NCBI RefSeq assembly: GCF_004331915.1
Contig: NZ_CP036528.1
Location: forward strand, 2,586,273 to 2,650,272
Reading direction: 5' to 3'
Source: Ureibacillus thermophilus
GTDB lineage: Bacteria > Bacillota > Bacilli > Bacillales_A > Planococcaceae
Length of the DNA stretch: 64,000 nucleotides
Below are positions 17,282-63,026 of this stretch, one piece after another; positions within the stretch are counted from its first letter, which is position 1, and every line of letters begins with the position of its first letter. The notes under the pieces were generated by a model. It made no database searches and was not told where the DNA came from. It saw nothing but the letters and a program-made list of their open reading frames with translations. The position numbers and the translations under genes are program-made.

Positions 17282-17329
17282 GGAACGCAAATAGCGAAAC
17301 GTACGCAACAAACACATACACTCCCGCTA

Positions 17330-17430
17330 TCTACTTCCCTACGCTGGTATAACCCAGATCAGGTTCAAAGGGTCAAAGAACTTAAGCGCGTTCTTTTCTC
17401 AGTCCAAGCTATTGGACTCCCCTAGTAGAT
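17330..17430 (-). promoter_or_regulatory. TPP riboswitch (THI element)
   Basis: Read on the minus strand, it contains the conserved TPP aptamer blocks: CTAGGGGAGTCC, CTGAGA, GACCCTTTGAACCTGATCTG and ACCAGCGTAGGGAAGTAG. These are the P3/P5 core and closing P1 sequences. It precedes the thiC terminator hairpin and start codon, so thiC transcription would fall when thiamine pyrophosphate is plentiful. Confidence 0.96.
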
Positions 17431-17496
17431 AAGCGACAAACTTATTTAATTTTTCTTAATATTAACATACTTATGATGCAATGTAAATACGCTTCC

Positions 17497-59997: not shown

Positions 59998-60405
59998 ATG
60001 GGCAAAGGGCAGATTACGAAAGAAAAGTTAGAACAATGGATTAAAGACTATCGTTGGATGATTAATACAGTCGAAGAATTACAAAGCGAATTAGACTTCA
60101 AAGGGGCAAAAATAGCGCAGTACGGTGTTGAAGCCAGTTTGCCGAAAGCGGCTGGAAGTACAGGTGATGTGGTGTTCTCGGAAGTGTTGCGCCGGAACAA
60201 ACACTTAAAACGAATCAATGAATATATTTTTAAAATTCAAGAAGTGCAAAAACGAGTTGATAAAGTAACAGAACCAAGAGAAGCAGAAGTATTGTATTGG
60301 CTCTTAGAAGGTAAATCAATGCGTTGGATTGGGCAGCACATGGCTTTAAGTCATGTATCTATTAAAAACATCAAAGAATCGATTATCGAAAGTATGTTGA
60401 AATAG
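59998..60405 (+). CDS. ArpU/RinA-like late transcription regulator
   Basis: 135 residues. The C-terminal part has a sigma-70 region 4-like HTH: EPREAEVLYWLLEGKSMRWI and GQHMALSHVSIKNIKESIIE. This combination, directly upstream of the packaging genes, is typical of the ArpU/DUF722 late activators of Gram-positive phages. TGGGAGGGCAAACAG precedes the ATG. It probably switches on the late operon that begins after the structured noncoding region. Confidence 0.82.
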   Translation: MGKGQITKEKLEQWIKDYRWMINTVEELQSELDFKGAKIAQYGVEASLPKAAGSTGDVVFSEVLRRNKHLKRINEYIFKIQEVQKRVDKVTEPREAEVLYWLLEGKSMRWIGQHMALSHVSIKNIKESIIESMLK

Positions 60406-60486
60406 TGTATTTCCAAACTTACCAAATTTAACACTTTTAACAAAGGTGACAGCTATTATTTTCCAACTGTAAAATATGAGGTAGGT

Positions 60487-60587
60487 CCGGGGCGGCGTGG
60501 AAAACCGCTTCGGCATTTCAAAAATACACGAATAACACAATTCGTAAAGTTGGTCAATGAAGCAGTCGGCGTGGAAAACCGGCTGCT
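60487..60587 (+). ncRNA. Twin hairpins with identical loops
   Basis: Hairpin 1 pairs 60487-60495 with 60505-60513; hairpin 2 pairs 60561-60569 with 60579-60587. Each has nine continuous pairs (with G-U) and the same nine-nt loop, CGTGGAAAA (60496-60504 and 60570-60578). The stems differ below the CGG/CCG closing pairs, so structure and loop are conserved while outer sequence is not. The loops are 74 nt apart. Confidence 0.65.
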
Positions 60588-60597
60588 GAATACATAT

Positions 60598-60773
60598 GAG
60601 ACAGTGGCGGAAAGGGAAGACGCTTAGACGTAAGACGAGCTACGCTTCGGTGCCAAAGGCATGGCGTAATGGGAGGCTCGACTCTAATAAGAACCAGAGC
60701 GGAACGCAGTTTGACCGCGTACCCGTCGATAAATGCTCGTCATGCAAGGTTCGAATCCTTGCCTGTCTCGCCA
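60598..60773 (+). ncRNA. tRNA-like RNA with replaced anticodon arm
   Basis: GAGACAG (60598-60604) pairs perfectly with CTGTCTC (60763-60769), followed by discriminator G and encoded CCA. T605-G606 fit positions 8-9; a D-arm GCG-GAAAGGGAAGA-CGC (60607-60623) has the GG pair. The T-arm CAAGG-TTCGAAT-CCTTG (60745-60761) is canonical and extended by G744-C762. Instead of an anticodon arm, 120 nt intervene, closed by GACGAGC/GCTCGTC (60634-60640/60735-60741) with inner helices TACGC/GCGTA, TGCC/GGCA, ATGGG/CCCGT, GCTC/GAGC and ACGC/GCGT. No anticodon stem-loop is recognisable. Confidence 0.65.
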
Positions 60774-60889
60774 TTTTGCGGTTGGGACTACGAATTCGTG
60801 GGCCTAACCTATCGCTCATCCACCTAGTTGTGGAAGGAGAATGCTGGTTGCTCATAGAGTAAACGGCCTTTTGAAAGGCGATTTAAATC

Positions 60890-60955
60890 ACAACGCCGTT
60901 GACCGTCGGACGATCAATATCGACTGACAAATGGTCTCGGCGTTGTATTTTTATA
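60890..60955 (+). terminator. Terminator of the leader RNA
   Basis: ACAACGCCG (60890-60898) pairs perfectly with CGGCGTTGT (60938-60946), followed by ATTTTTATA. Inner pairs GACC/GGTC and GTCG/CGAC extend the fold. It lies upstream of the terminase genes and must be read through or bypassed for late expression. Confidence 0.65.
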
Positions 60956-61083
60956 CTTTGAAACCTGCACCAAACATCCGCATTCACCGATTGGCATGTG
61001 TAAATCCTCCTCTTATTTCGTTTTTTTGTTTGGTGCGGATTTGAGAGTGTAAACGGACTATCGCAAAAAAAGAAGGTGAGAAC

Positions 61084-61251
61084 ATGCAATTACATGAGCG
61101 ATTAAATGAACAGACAAAACAAAAGTTGAATGAATTGAAAAAACAAAATAAGCATAAAACCGAACAGTATTCGAAGCGTGAAATACTTGAATTGATGGGC
61201 GTAAATAGACCAACATACAAGCGTGTGCGCGGGGCGATTCGGAGGAAATAA
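61084..61251 (+). CDS. Small basic protein preceding terminase
   Basis: 55 residues: MQLHERLNEQTKQKLNELKK, QNKHKTEQYSKREILELMGV, NRPTYKRVRGAIRRK. The C-terminal half reads like a short HTH (SKREILELMGVNRPTYKRVR). AGAAGGTGAGAAC precedes the ATG. Small basic proteins in this position occur in related siphophages. Perhaps DNA- or RNA-binding. Confidence 0.7.
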   Translation: MQLHERLNEQTKQKLNELKKQNKHKTEQYSKREILELMGVNRPTYKRVRGAIRRK

Positions 61252-61314
61252 ATTTAGCATCCTTCGGGGTGTTTTTTAATTTTACCGAGCAATTAGCGTA
61301 ATGGGGTGATGCCA

Positions 61315-61758
61315 TTGAATGTAAGGAAATTAACGCCGAAACAACAAGCATTTGCTGACTATTACATCGAATTAGGTAATGCTACACAAGCAGCGATCAA
61401 AGCAGGATATAGTAAACGTTCGGCAAGACAGATAGGTGAACAAAACTTGTCAAAACATGACATTAAAGCTTATATCGATGCTCGAATGAAAGAATTAAAG
61501 TCACAACGTATAGCAGATCAGCAAGAAATATTGGAAACATTGACATCTGTTTTGCGTGGCGAAGCAAGAGCTGCAACATTAGTCGGAGTTGGTGGGGGTG
61601 AAGAAGAAATTAATACAGAAATGCCGCCAACTATGAGCGAACGAATTAAAGCGGCTGAACTACTTGGTAAACGTTACGCCATGTGGACAGATAAACAAGA
61701 CGTTAATGTGCAAGGTGCTGTAACATTCGTGGATGATATAAGCGGTGATGGCGAATGA
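61315..61758 (+). CDS. terS: Phage terminase small subunit
   Basis: 147 residues. The N-terminal HTH is typical of Terminase_2 proteins: KLTPKQQAFADYYIELGNAT, QAAIKAGYSKRSARQIGEQN. TTG at 61315 is 6 nt after GGGGTG; a GTG at 61306 overlaps that site. It recognises the packaging site and overlaps the large subunit by 4 nt. Confidence 0.93.
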   Translation: MNVRKLTPKQQAFADYYIELGNATQAAIKAGYSKRSARQIGEQNLSKHDIKAYIDARMKELKSQRIADQQEILETLTSVLRGEARAATLVGVGGGEEEINTEMPPTMSERIKAAELLGKRYAMWTDKQDVNVQGAVTFVDDISGDGE

Positions 61759-63026
61759 CTGTCATAAGACTATCAGAATTATTGCCAAAAGCATTTCATT
61801 CGGTGTGGAAAGCTACTATTAACCCAAATATATTAAACGTGGTATGCAAAGGTGGACGTGGTTCTGGTAAATCCTCAGGTATTGCTCATATAATTGTCCA
61901 ACTACTCATGCGTTACCCCGTTAATGCGGTGGGTATAAGAAAAGTTGACAATACTATCGAACTATCAATCTTTGAACAAATGAAATGGGCCATAAACGAA
62001 CAAGGTGTGGCACATTTATTCAAGATTAATAAATCTCCAATGCGAATCACATACATTCCTAGAGGGAATTATATGGTATTCCGTGGAGCGTTAGAGCCAG
62101 AGCGTATTAAATCATTAAAAAGTGCTAATTTTCCATTTGCCATTGCTTGGATTGAGGAATTAGCTGAGTTCAAAACAGAAGATGAAGTTACAACCATTAC
62201 AAACTCTTTATTGCGTGGAGAGTTGAGTAATGGTCTTTTTTATAAGTTCTTCTATTCATACAACCCTCCAAAGCGAAAACAATCATGGGTTAATAAAAAA
62301 TACGAATCGGCATTTGTTCCTGAAAATACATTTGTTCATCACTCAACTTACTTAGATAACCCATTCATTTCAAAACAGTTTATTGAAGAAGCAAATGCAG
62401 CTAAAGAACGAAATGAATTACGTTACAGATGGGAGTACTTAGGCGAGGCAATCGGTTCTGGTGTCGTACCATTTGATAACTTGCACATCGAAAAAGGATG
62501 CATAACTGATGAAATGGTGAAGAACTTTGATAACATACGAAATGGTGTTGACTTTGGTTATGCAACGGATCCATTAGCTTATGTTCGTATTCACTACGAC
62601 AAAAAGAGGAATGGTATCTATATCTTTGACGAAATATACGGTGTGAAAATGAGTAATAGAGAGTTTGCTAAGAAACTACACGATAAAGGGTATCAATCAG
62701 ATGAAATATTCGCTGATTCAGCAGAACCCAAATCAATCGATGAACTAAAGCATGAGCATGGAATCAAACGAATCAAAGGTGTTAAAAAAGGTCCTGACAG
62801 TGTTGAATACGGTGAACAATGGTTAGATGATTTAGATTTTATTTGCATTGATCCGTTACGTACACCAAACACAGCTAGAGAGTTTGAAAATATCGATTAT
62901 CAAACGGATAAAGATGGCAATCCTAAACCGCGTTTAGAAGATAAAGATAACCACAGTATCGACGCAACACGTTATGCAATGAGCGAGGATATGCGTTCTA
63001 AGAAACGCATGCAAGTTTTGCGTTAA
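61755..63026 (+). CDS. terL: Phage terminase large subunit (PBSX/Terminase_3 type)
   Basis: A 423-residue packaging motor. ATPase domain with Walker A CKGGRGSGKSSGIAHI and Walker B FAIAWIEELAEF; C-terminal RNase H-like nuclease with acidic motifs VDFGYATDPLAYV, IFADSAEP and the final DNHSIDATRYAM. The ATG overlaps terS. Cuts and pumps the concatemeric phage DNA. Confidence 0.95.
   Translation: MTVIRLSELLPKAFHSVWKATINPNILNVVCKGGRGSGKSSGIAHIIVQLLMRYPVNAVGIRKVDNTIELSIFEQMKWAINEQGVAHLFKINKSPMRITYIPRGNYMVFRGALEPERIKSLKSANFPFAIAWIEELAEFKTEDEVTTITNSLLRGELSNGLFYKFFYSYNPPKRKQSWVNKKYESAFVPENTFVHHSTYLDNPFISKQFIEEANAAKERNELRYRWEYLGEAIGSGVVPFDNLHIEKGCITDEMVKNFDNIRNGVDFGYATDPLAYVRIHYDKKRNGIYIFDEIYGVKMSNREFAKKLHDKGYQSDEIFADSAEPKSIDELKHEHGIKRIKGVKKGPDSVEYGEQWLDDLDFICIDPLRTPNTAREFENIDYQTDKDGNPKPRLEDKDNHSIDATRYAMSEDMRSKKRMQVLR

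Follow-up and report, generated by a model that had tools for sequence, protein, structure and literature searches.

Between a late regulator gene and the terminase genes of a prophage in a 64,000-nt stretch of the Ureibacillus thermophilus genome (contig NZ_CP036528.1, positions 2,586,273 to 2,650,272; hereafter the window) lies a sequence that begins and ends as a tRNA. The question it raises is what kind of RNA keeps these ends around something that is not an anticodon arm.

A tRNA-Leu shell around a different core

Read directly, the sequence at 60598 to 60773 separates its D-arm from its T-arm by 120 nt, in which no anticodon arm with a 7-nt loop was found, and it has the 7-bp acceptor stem, the D-arm, and the T-arm with its T-loop of the tRNA family (RF00005) (Table 1). 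A reading made from the letters of this DNA alone (the sequence-only reading) had proposed a tRNA-like RNA close to the terminase, with its anticodon arm replaced and with a 7+6 stack of acceptor and T-stem; direct reading bears out both proposals, the acceptor having 7 bp and the T-stem 6 bp. The window RNA is a tRNA-Leu acceptor stem, D-arm, and T-arm (together, the shell) around a different folded core. Its D-stem pairs GCG (60607 to 60609) with CGC (60621 to 60623) across an 11-nt loop that contains GG (loop letters GAAAGGGAAGA). This D-arm (TGGCGGAA..GG..AGACGC) reads like that of a tRNA-Leu, a reading backed by the ordinary tRNA-Leu genes with similar D-arms that came up in our pattern searches. 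Within the core, helices are predicted at 60641-60645/60664-60668 and 60651-60654/60658-60661, along with weaker ones; these inner helices are predictions only, without covariation proof.

TABLE 1 Features of the locus in window coordinates
Feature	Position	Strand	Basis or remark
Late transcription regulator-like protein	59998-60405	+	phrog_1058 (unknown function), phrog_36 (transcriptional regulator)
Promoter-like site, GTGACA-18-TAAAAT	60446-60475	+	10/12 matches
Acceptor stem, 5' strand GAGACAG	60598-60604	+	7/7 paired with CTGTCTC, 60763-60769
T8 (60605), G9, tRNA-Leu-like D-arm	60605-60623	+	Direct reading
Core-closing helix, 5' strand GACGAGC	60634-60640	+	7 bp with 60735-60741
Core ("payload")	60641-60734	+	Predicted fold; near-identical in phages D6E and PK3.5
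Core-closing helix, 3' strand GCTCGTC	60735-60741	+	2 nt 5' of the T-arm
T-arm, 6-bp stem GCAAGG/CCTTGC, loop TTCGAAT	60744-60762	+	Stem strands 60744-60749 and 60757-60762; T-arm of relatives the same or similar
Acceptor 3' strand CTGTCTC, discriminator G60770, encoded CCA (60771-60773)	60763-60773	+	Direct reading
Terminator-like stem ACAACGCCG/CGGCGTTGT, then U-rich run	60890-60954	+	Direct reading and predicted fold
Terminase small subunit	61306-61758	+	PF03592
Terminase large subunit	61755-63026	+	PF04466

Free folding of the isolated 176 nt recovers the acceptor, the T-stem, and the closing helix. This segment is modestly stabler than shuffled sequences (z = −2.11; 6 of 200 shuffles equally good), and the longer stretch from the promoter-like site to the stem and U-run (60484 to 60956) is clearly stabler (z = −4.53; 0 of 100), as are long stretches around the RNA in phages D6E (z = −3.67; 0 of 100 shuffles as stable) and PK3.5 (z = −3.95; 0 of 20). 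It is comparison with relatives, not folding energy, that excludes a chance origin of the window RNA. Judged by its letters, the promoter-like site is the probable start of the RNA transcript, though weak on its own, because two such sites were found against 1.7 expected in shuffles. The terminator-like stem, which an automatic terminator scan with a loop limit of 8 did not list, is likely the 3' end of a transcript of ∼470 nt.

A widespread family of phage RNAs

A BLAST search of a phage collection with the window RNA returned three records (thermophilic phage D6E twice and Geobacillus phage PK3.5) at 97.5 to 98.8% identity over 60604 to 60763, and nothing aligns between the window and these phages outside that interval; T4-type phages are absent from these matches, and the plasmid search gave none. 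With D6E and PK3.5 the only phages and no plasmid among the matches, these searches offer no hint of a target. The near-unchanged core is accompanied by a different but paired acceptor (GAGACAG/CTGTCTC in the window, CCTGCGG/CCGCAGG in D6E and PK3.5), and hence the acceptor of the shell has been replaced as a pair. In all three genomes the RNA follows a RinA-like or similar late regulator. In the window the terminase comes next; the records of D6E and PK3.5 begin with it and have the RNA at their end, which puts the two 1.1 kb (D6E) and about 4 kb (PK3.5) apart if the record ends are joined.

Copies in host genomes are few: one in the genome of origin, one among 25 genomes of the genus (again its own), and matches in 2 of 261 genomes of the family, the second being a 39-bp match (E = 0.003) that we take as chance. 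A Leu-type pattern whose D-loop lacks one base relative to that of the window occurs in 49 of 261 genomes of the order, where the letters shown are those of ordinary tRNA-Leu, and 16 genome-contig loci from a pattern search proved by their letters to be ordinary tRNA genes in 16 of 16 cases (ARAGORN was run on 9). Because the pattern was fixed to one D-loop form and one range of core lengths, other prophage copies may exist.

Viral sequences hold many more relatives, which we designate by locus numbers (L). A Leu-type D-arm and T-arm at long distance occur in at least 120 IMG/VR stretches. Among 90 hits with a long interior, the acceptor, which was not part of the pattern, pairs at 7/7 in 56 (42 distinct), though chance pairing is inflated here because each acceptor was scored at the best of five offsets; the count of 100 RNAs given below is free of that bias. 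A scanner that called acceptor, T8, D-arm, long gap, and T-arm together gave 98 hits in 3.07 Mb of loci versus 0 in the same sequences reversed (both strands and duplicates counted, the loci being mostly preselected by pattern), and with relaxed criteria the control yielded 1 hit in 3.2 Mb. Of the 80 distinct, nonnested hits, at least 4 are runs of ordinary tRNAs; we dropped 16 (4 overlapping ordinary tRNAs and 12 with an off-pattern D-arm, several of them apparently real) and kept 64, or 55 representatives after clustering at 90%. Before these 16 were dropped, CCA was encoded in 6 of the 80 and the discriminator was A in 61, G in 12, C in 4, and T in 3; a discriminator so little conserved indicates that a charged amino acid is not a family feature.

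Further members, including L164 and L167, came from a pattern with the window's D-loop, a longer-core pattern, and two more patterns. Named phages carry relatives of L164, L167, and L189: Listeria phage B025 (84.3% identity to the L189 RNA over 94%), Enterococcus phages EG-TP1, VEsP-1, and EH-TP1, and Schiekvirus vB_Edu_21C1. In B025, VEsP-1, and 21C1 the T-arm reads GCAAGG or GTAAGG, then TGCAAAT, then CCTTGC, and the resulting 20-nt T-arm signature TGCARGGTGCAAATCCYTGC matches at least 120 viral stretches. A D-arm was found, independently of the acceptor, in 100 of the 120 matches listed, the 20 without a recognizable one being set aside; in those 100 the acceptor pairs at 7/7 in 90, at 6/7 in 9, and at 2/7 in 1, versus 11% at 7/7 when partners were re-dealt, and their 53 distinct acceptor pairs divide into 43, 9, and 1 in the same classes. 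At position 55 the RNAs of this group have a G where U is usual, and their elbow is therefore not fully canonical. Pooling the RNAs whose acceptor pairs at 6/7 or better with the 55 representatives and 6 copies from named phages gives a set of 145 distinct RNAs. On these sequence comparisons, the window RNA belongs to a widespread family of phage RNAs, one that is apparently undescribed so far.

Covariation of the shell

In an alignment of the RNAs of the window, D6E, PK3.5, and L164, standard pairs occupy all 92 cells of the acceptor, D-stem, closing helix, and T-stem, and 9 of the 23 pairs have changed on both sides, 5 of 7 in the acceptor and 4 of 7 in the closing helix; slid controls of this alignment pair at 34.8 to 47.6%. 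With L334 replacing PK3.5, 98.9% of the 92 cells are paired and 10 of 23 pairs have changed on both sides (5 in the acceptor, 5 in the closing helix), versus 33.8 to 46.4% paired in slid controls. The sequence-only reading had named the acceptor and the 60634/60741 helix as the places where homologues ought to show compensation, and both helices show it, whether PK3.5 or L334 is in the alignment. The minimum-energy fold of the L164 RNA omits the closing helix that covariation supports. Across the family, a closing-helix score of at least 5 (GU counted half) is reached in 52 of 103 core families versus 18.7 in shuffles, and a score of at least 6 in 34 of 103 core-family representatives versus 6.5, which means that about half of the core families lack a clear closing helix.

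Exchange of cores under a constant shell

The cores differ far more than the shells that hold them. Single-linkage clustering sorts the 145 distinct RNAs into 103 core families, 81 of them with a single member; a few members of the largest family may be chance links. Core and acceptor also vary separately: the core family of B025, L188, L326, and L167 has four acceptors in its four members, and that of the window has three in the count of 145. We then compared cores and flanks in the 84 loci that have 7/7 acceptors and 150 nt on both sides, counting core identity over the longer core (median for shuffled cores, 50%; 95th percentile, 60%). Among 113 pairs of loci with one 150-nt flank more than 80% identical, 76 have cores below 60% identity, and so do 10 of the 23 pairs in which both flanks exceed 80%; these pairs are not independent events, many of the loci being close relatives. 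The clearest case is L271 and L282, with flanks 92% and 87% identical, a shell at 88%, and a core at 31% (36 versus 98 nt long). Such comparisons of sequence show that cores are swapped between phages while shell and flanks stay, and unrelated cores under near-identical flanks and shells imply that the ends of the shell mark the exchange borders. The size of the family and this exchange were out of reach for the sequence-only reading. Ordinary mosaicism of phage genomes, with no arms race behind it, could also account for the swapping.

Words of 6 and 7 letters yielded no shared core motif: CGTAAA occurs in 10 cores versus 2.3 expected and GGAAAGT in 6 versus 0.6 (55 representatives), and none exceeds the shuffled maximum. 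By eye, the cores of L109, L086, L224, L236, L246, and L274 seem to hold a further T-arm-like or tRNA-like piece.

A proposed carrier RNA made by host tRNA enzymes

We favor, as the probable explanation, a natural phage "tRNA scaffold" RNA: a tRNA-Leu shell that is processed by the host and presents an exchangeable core to a target. RNase P, RNase Z, the CCA enzyme, and RNA-protecting factors recognize features that are kept in such a tRNA shell. The shell is constant, and the acceptor letters, the discriminator, and the core are free to change, which fits a carrier and not an adaptor. Transcription of the RNA would start at a promoter of its own, sited in the window between the late regulator gene and the terminase; other phages would make it beside tRNA genes, and in both cases this would happen in the late stage of infection. 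RNase P would cut at G60598, and the 3' end would be CCA, which is encoded in the window and would be added by a host enzyme in most relatives. The tRNA elbow would protect the product, and the mature RNA of ∼176 nt would present its core to the target, which is probably something that phages meet in conflict, namely, host defense or competing phages. The swapping of cores under the same shell and flanks is the sole basis on which we infer that the target probably belongs to such a conflict.

A broader form of this proposal, possible and put forward tentatively, is an RNA cassette system, in which a constant tRNA-Leu-like shell made by host tRNA enzymes would carry payloads acting in trans as anti-defense RNAs, decoys, or weapons against rivals, the regulator-terminase locus then being the RNA counterpart of protein-coding anti-defense hot spots. 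If the cores are indeed payloads against defense systems, they would represent an RNA-based side of phage-host conflict that is testable core by core.

Genomic position and the late operon

The surroundings of the relatives bear on another reading, in which the RNA is a cis-acting leader of the late operon, its tRNA-like fold serving as an RNase P/RNase Z processing or antitermination element and the freed RNA having no target. Searches with 23 query proteins, taken from the window and relatives, placed a late regulator no more than 2.5 kb upstream of the RNA in 24 of 72 testable loci, compared with 1 of 79 on the downstream side. For HNH or terminase genes, sought up to 5 kb away, the bias is the opposite: 24 of 60 loci have one downstream and 0 of 53 have one upstream. 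Since the queries cover few protein types, these counts are lower bounds, with the position confirmed in a minority of loci. A place between the regulator and the HNH or terminase gene is where such a leader would be expected, a terminator-like stem follows the window RNA, and rli62, classed by Rfam as cis-regulatory, ends 51 nt before the tRNA-like RNA in the Listeria-type prophage locus L271. Other relatives, however, stand beside ordinary tRNAs: in group 2, whose acceptor is AGTCAGG in 37 of 56 hits, an ordinary tRNA lies within 3 kb of 16 of 42 RNAs, and the 3 kb around the RNA of Enterococcus phage 21C1 holds tRNAs, a tmRNA, and no annotated terminase. Copies also occur two or three in a row (L192, with three, L104, and L121), and a leader leaves the exchange of cores under constant shell and flanks unexplained. 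We therefore consider this reading unlikely.

In group 1, the open reading frame lists of L169, L170, L194, L196, L197, L199, and L204 hold no obvious terminase when read by eye. Two members of group 2, searched by BLAST in the phage records, brought up tRNA pieces and short matches only, among the best 60 of 147 and 317 records. The three tandem RNAs of L192 (11338 to 11977) have different cores. In L216 (Enterococcus phage vB_Edu_21C1; 1066 to 1413), a phage tmRNA with the tag AKNEELLAVA stands directly before the tRNA-like RNA, and L041 has a tmRNA about 1.5 kb from it.

Small RNAs known from Listeria adjoin some members. In eight T-arm loci that we picked by hand for an Rfam scan, mcrA RNA (RF03010) lies 62 to 143 nt downstream in five, and rliG (RF02415) or rli62 (RF01486) lies upstream or overlaps in three; these neighbors occur in L281, L247, L271, L245, L282, and L265. 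The matches, which lie beside the tRNA-like unit in Listeria-type prophages, spare it except for a partial rliG overlap in L247. In L281, 4 nt separate the end of the rliG match (1096) from the start of the tRNA-like RNA (1101); the Rfam model of rliG may combine an invariant 5' domain and an exchangeable 3' part. Prophage A118 of EGD-e is reported to have rliG and rli62 among its small RNAs (PMC3556495), which points to transcription of such loci. In phage A118 itself, inspection of the surroundings of the late-regulator gene gp66 revealed no tRNA-like RNA. On the minus strand of L321 (234 to 413), a match to rli28 (RF01492) lies about 235 nt downstream of the tRNA-like RNA.

Ordinary tRNA, tmRNA, decay, and packaging

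At its default cutoff ARAGORN found no tRNA or tmRNA anywhere in the 64-kb window, and on the local stretch the tmRNA and intron options at that cutoff gave 0 genes. With introns disallowed, its calls include not one of the 145 distinct RNAs, nor do any overlap the 120 T-arms of the matches listed. An Rfam scan of the window had no match besides a far-off TPP riboswitch (RF00059, 85.6 bits; 17319 to 17433, minus strand), which is unrelated to the tRNA-like RNA, and a scan of 60400 to 61100 with E values up to 10 matched no family, the tRNA model RF00005 included. A clean match to a known Rfam family, which would have spoken against the sequence-only reading, thus did not occur. Rejection of its members by tRNA finders, and the lack of a model in Rfam 15 that fits the window RNA, seem to explain why the family went unnoticed. 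Above its cutoff, the Rfam tRNA model does score two shorter relatives as tRNAs with inserts, L121 8371-8494 (37.3 bits) and L192 11338-11457 (36.4 bits), both of them also scanner hits, which supports descent of the family from tRNA. Long Rfam tRNA matches without a scanner call at L126 2914-3029 (116 nt) and L104 1337-1442 (106 nt) are perhaps tRNA-like RNAs with small cores.

With introns allowed, results differ, and they bear on the reading that the locus is a tRNA gene whose anticodon-loop intron is spliced out to leave a normal tRNA-Leu, as the tRNA-Leu-like D-arm might suggest. At a cutoff of 50%, ARAGORN gives three candidates, one of which is a tRNA-Leu(aag) with an 88-nt intron spanning exactly 60598 to 60773, and D6E and PK3.5 likewise come out as Leu(aag) with an 88-nt intron. 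Across the 145 RNAs it draws full-span tRNAs on 37 at the default cutoff and on 104 at half of it. The window, however, has none at the default cutoff, and the 37 solutions there are of 14 kinds, including Stop and SeC, with Leu the commonest (8 of 37). At half the cutoff, kinds disagree even within core families (L164 Ala versus Leu in the window; L326 Arg versus Asp in B025 and L167). Halves of a tRNA-Leu anticodon arm are not consistent across the relatives, the would-be anticodon-stem parts varying by eye among members with the same shell, and no Rfam intron family matches the window RNA. Because the proposed anticodons disagree among RNAs, the phage tRNA with a small intron that the sequence-only reading had offered finds little support, and we hold it to be very improbable. 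In L189 (9686 to 9836) there is a borderline match to a group II intron, its score exactly equal to the gathering score.

The tmRNA mimic that the sequence-only reading had also named is not supported. tmRNA (SsrA) lacks a D-stem and has a tag frame and an alanine determinant, the G3-U70 pair. The layouts are alike, with tRNA-like ends and other RNA in place of the anticodon arm, and an RNA of this kind might tag stalled proteins with leucine or another amino acid. The window RNA differs in having no tmRNA call, no G3-U70 (pair 3 is G-C), and a much shorter core. ARAGORN, by which alone a tag frame was sought, finds no tmRNA in the window or the scanned relatives apart from the true phage tmRNA adjoining the RNA of L216, and the cores of most members are unrelated to each other. 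We give a tmRNA-like role very little credence.

Functionless decay of phage tRNA genes by random insertion would fit the many tRNA genes that phages carry and the mostly unique cores (81 of 103 core families single). Yet the acceptors stay paired through complete change of sequence (7/7 in 90 of 100), core families are common to different acceptors, and the closing helices exceed shuffles, all of which makes decay hard to credit. A packaging RNA like the pRNA of phi29-type phages, which the neighboring terminase in the window and several relatives could suggest, is just as doubtful: no Rfam family matches at E values up to 10, the small terminase subunits measure 150 (window), 299 (D6E), and 164 (PK3.5) aa (from annotation or open reading frames, sizes only being compared), and other relatives stand beside tRNAs. 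The regulatory or packaging RNA that the sequence-only reading had also named is possible, but with some relatives in tRNA arrays and no annotated terminase in the 3 kb around the RNA of 21C1, packaging is unlikely as the general role of the family.

Relation to known RNAs

The nearest design is man-made. The artificial "tRNA scaffold" consists of an acceptor stem, T- and D-arms, and an insertion region that replaces the anticodon stem-loop, in an RNA recognized by cellular factors of E. coli (PMC3753655). The phage RNA has this architecture: the shell is kept and a foreign fold takes the place of the anticodon arm. It differs in being natural, in its Leu-type shell, and in the exchange of its cores during evolution, and its processing to a stable RNA is a prediction. 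From tRNA-Leu (RF00005), whose sequence and structure the shell shares and whose model scores the two shorter relatives, the window RNA departs in having no anticodon arm, no default ARAGORN call, and no Rfam match.

None of the known families tested has all the features of the window RNA. No natural RNA class that combines a constant tRNA shell with interchanged cores is known to us; the nearest kinds are tmRNA and T4 RNA C. We recognized no description of such a class in titles, abstracts, and passages of the open-licence literature; an earlier account elsewhere is possible. The 20-nt T-arm signature together with acceptor pairing provides a simple handle for listing the family, which offers natural modules for stable RNA expression, and an old puzzle, T4 RNA C, now stands with small-RNA loci from Listeria prophages beside one architecture.

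T4 RNA C (species 1 stable RNA, rnaC) is, like the window RNA, tRNA-like in its T-arm and its 7-nt acceptor strands, and is a stable phage RNA by a tRNA cluster; it has no T8, no D-arm, and two U-U mismatches in its acceptor, whereas the window RNA has a D-arm. A relative of RNA C in Yersinia phage fHe-Yen9-01 has a fully paired acceptor with one G-U. RNA C (L133 1409-1547; T4, NC_000866) and its relatives (L207 to L211) end in a tRNA-like T-arm and acceptor, and in the copy of Salmonella phage Melville (L209) the 3' half alone matches, as if the core had been exchanged.
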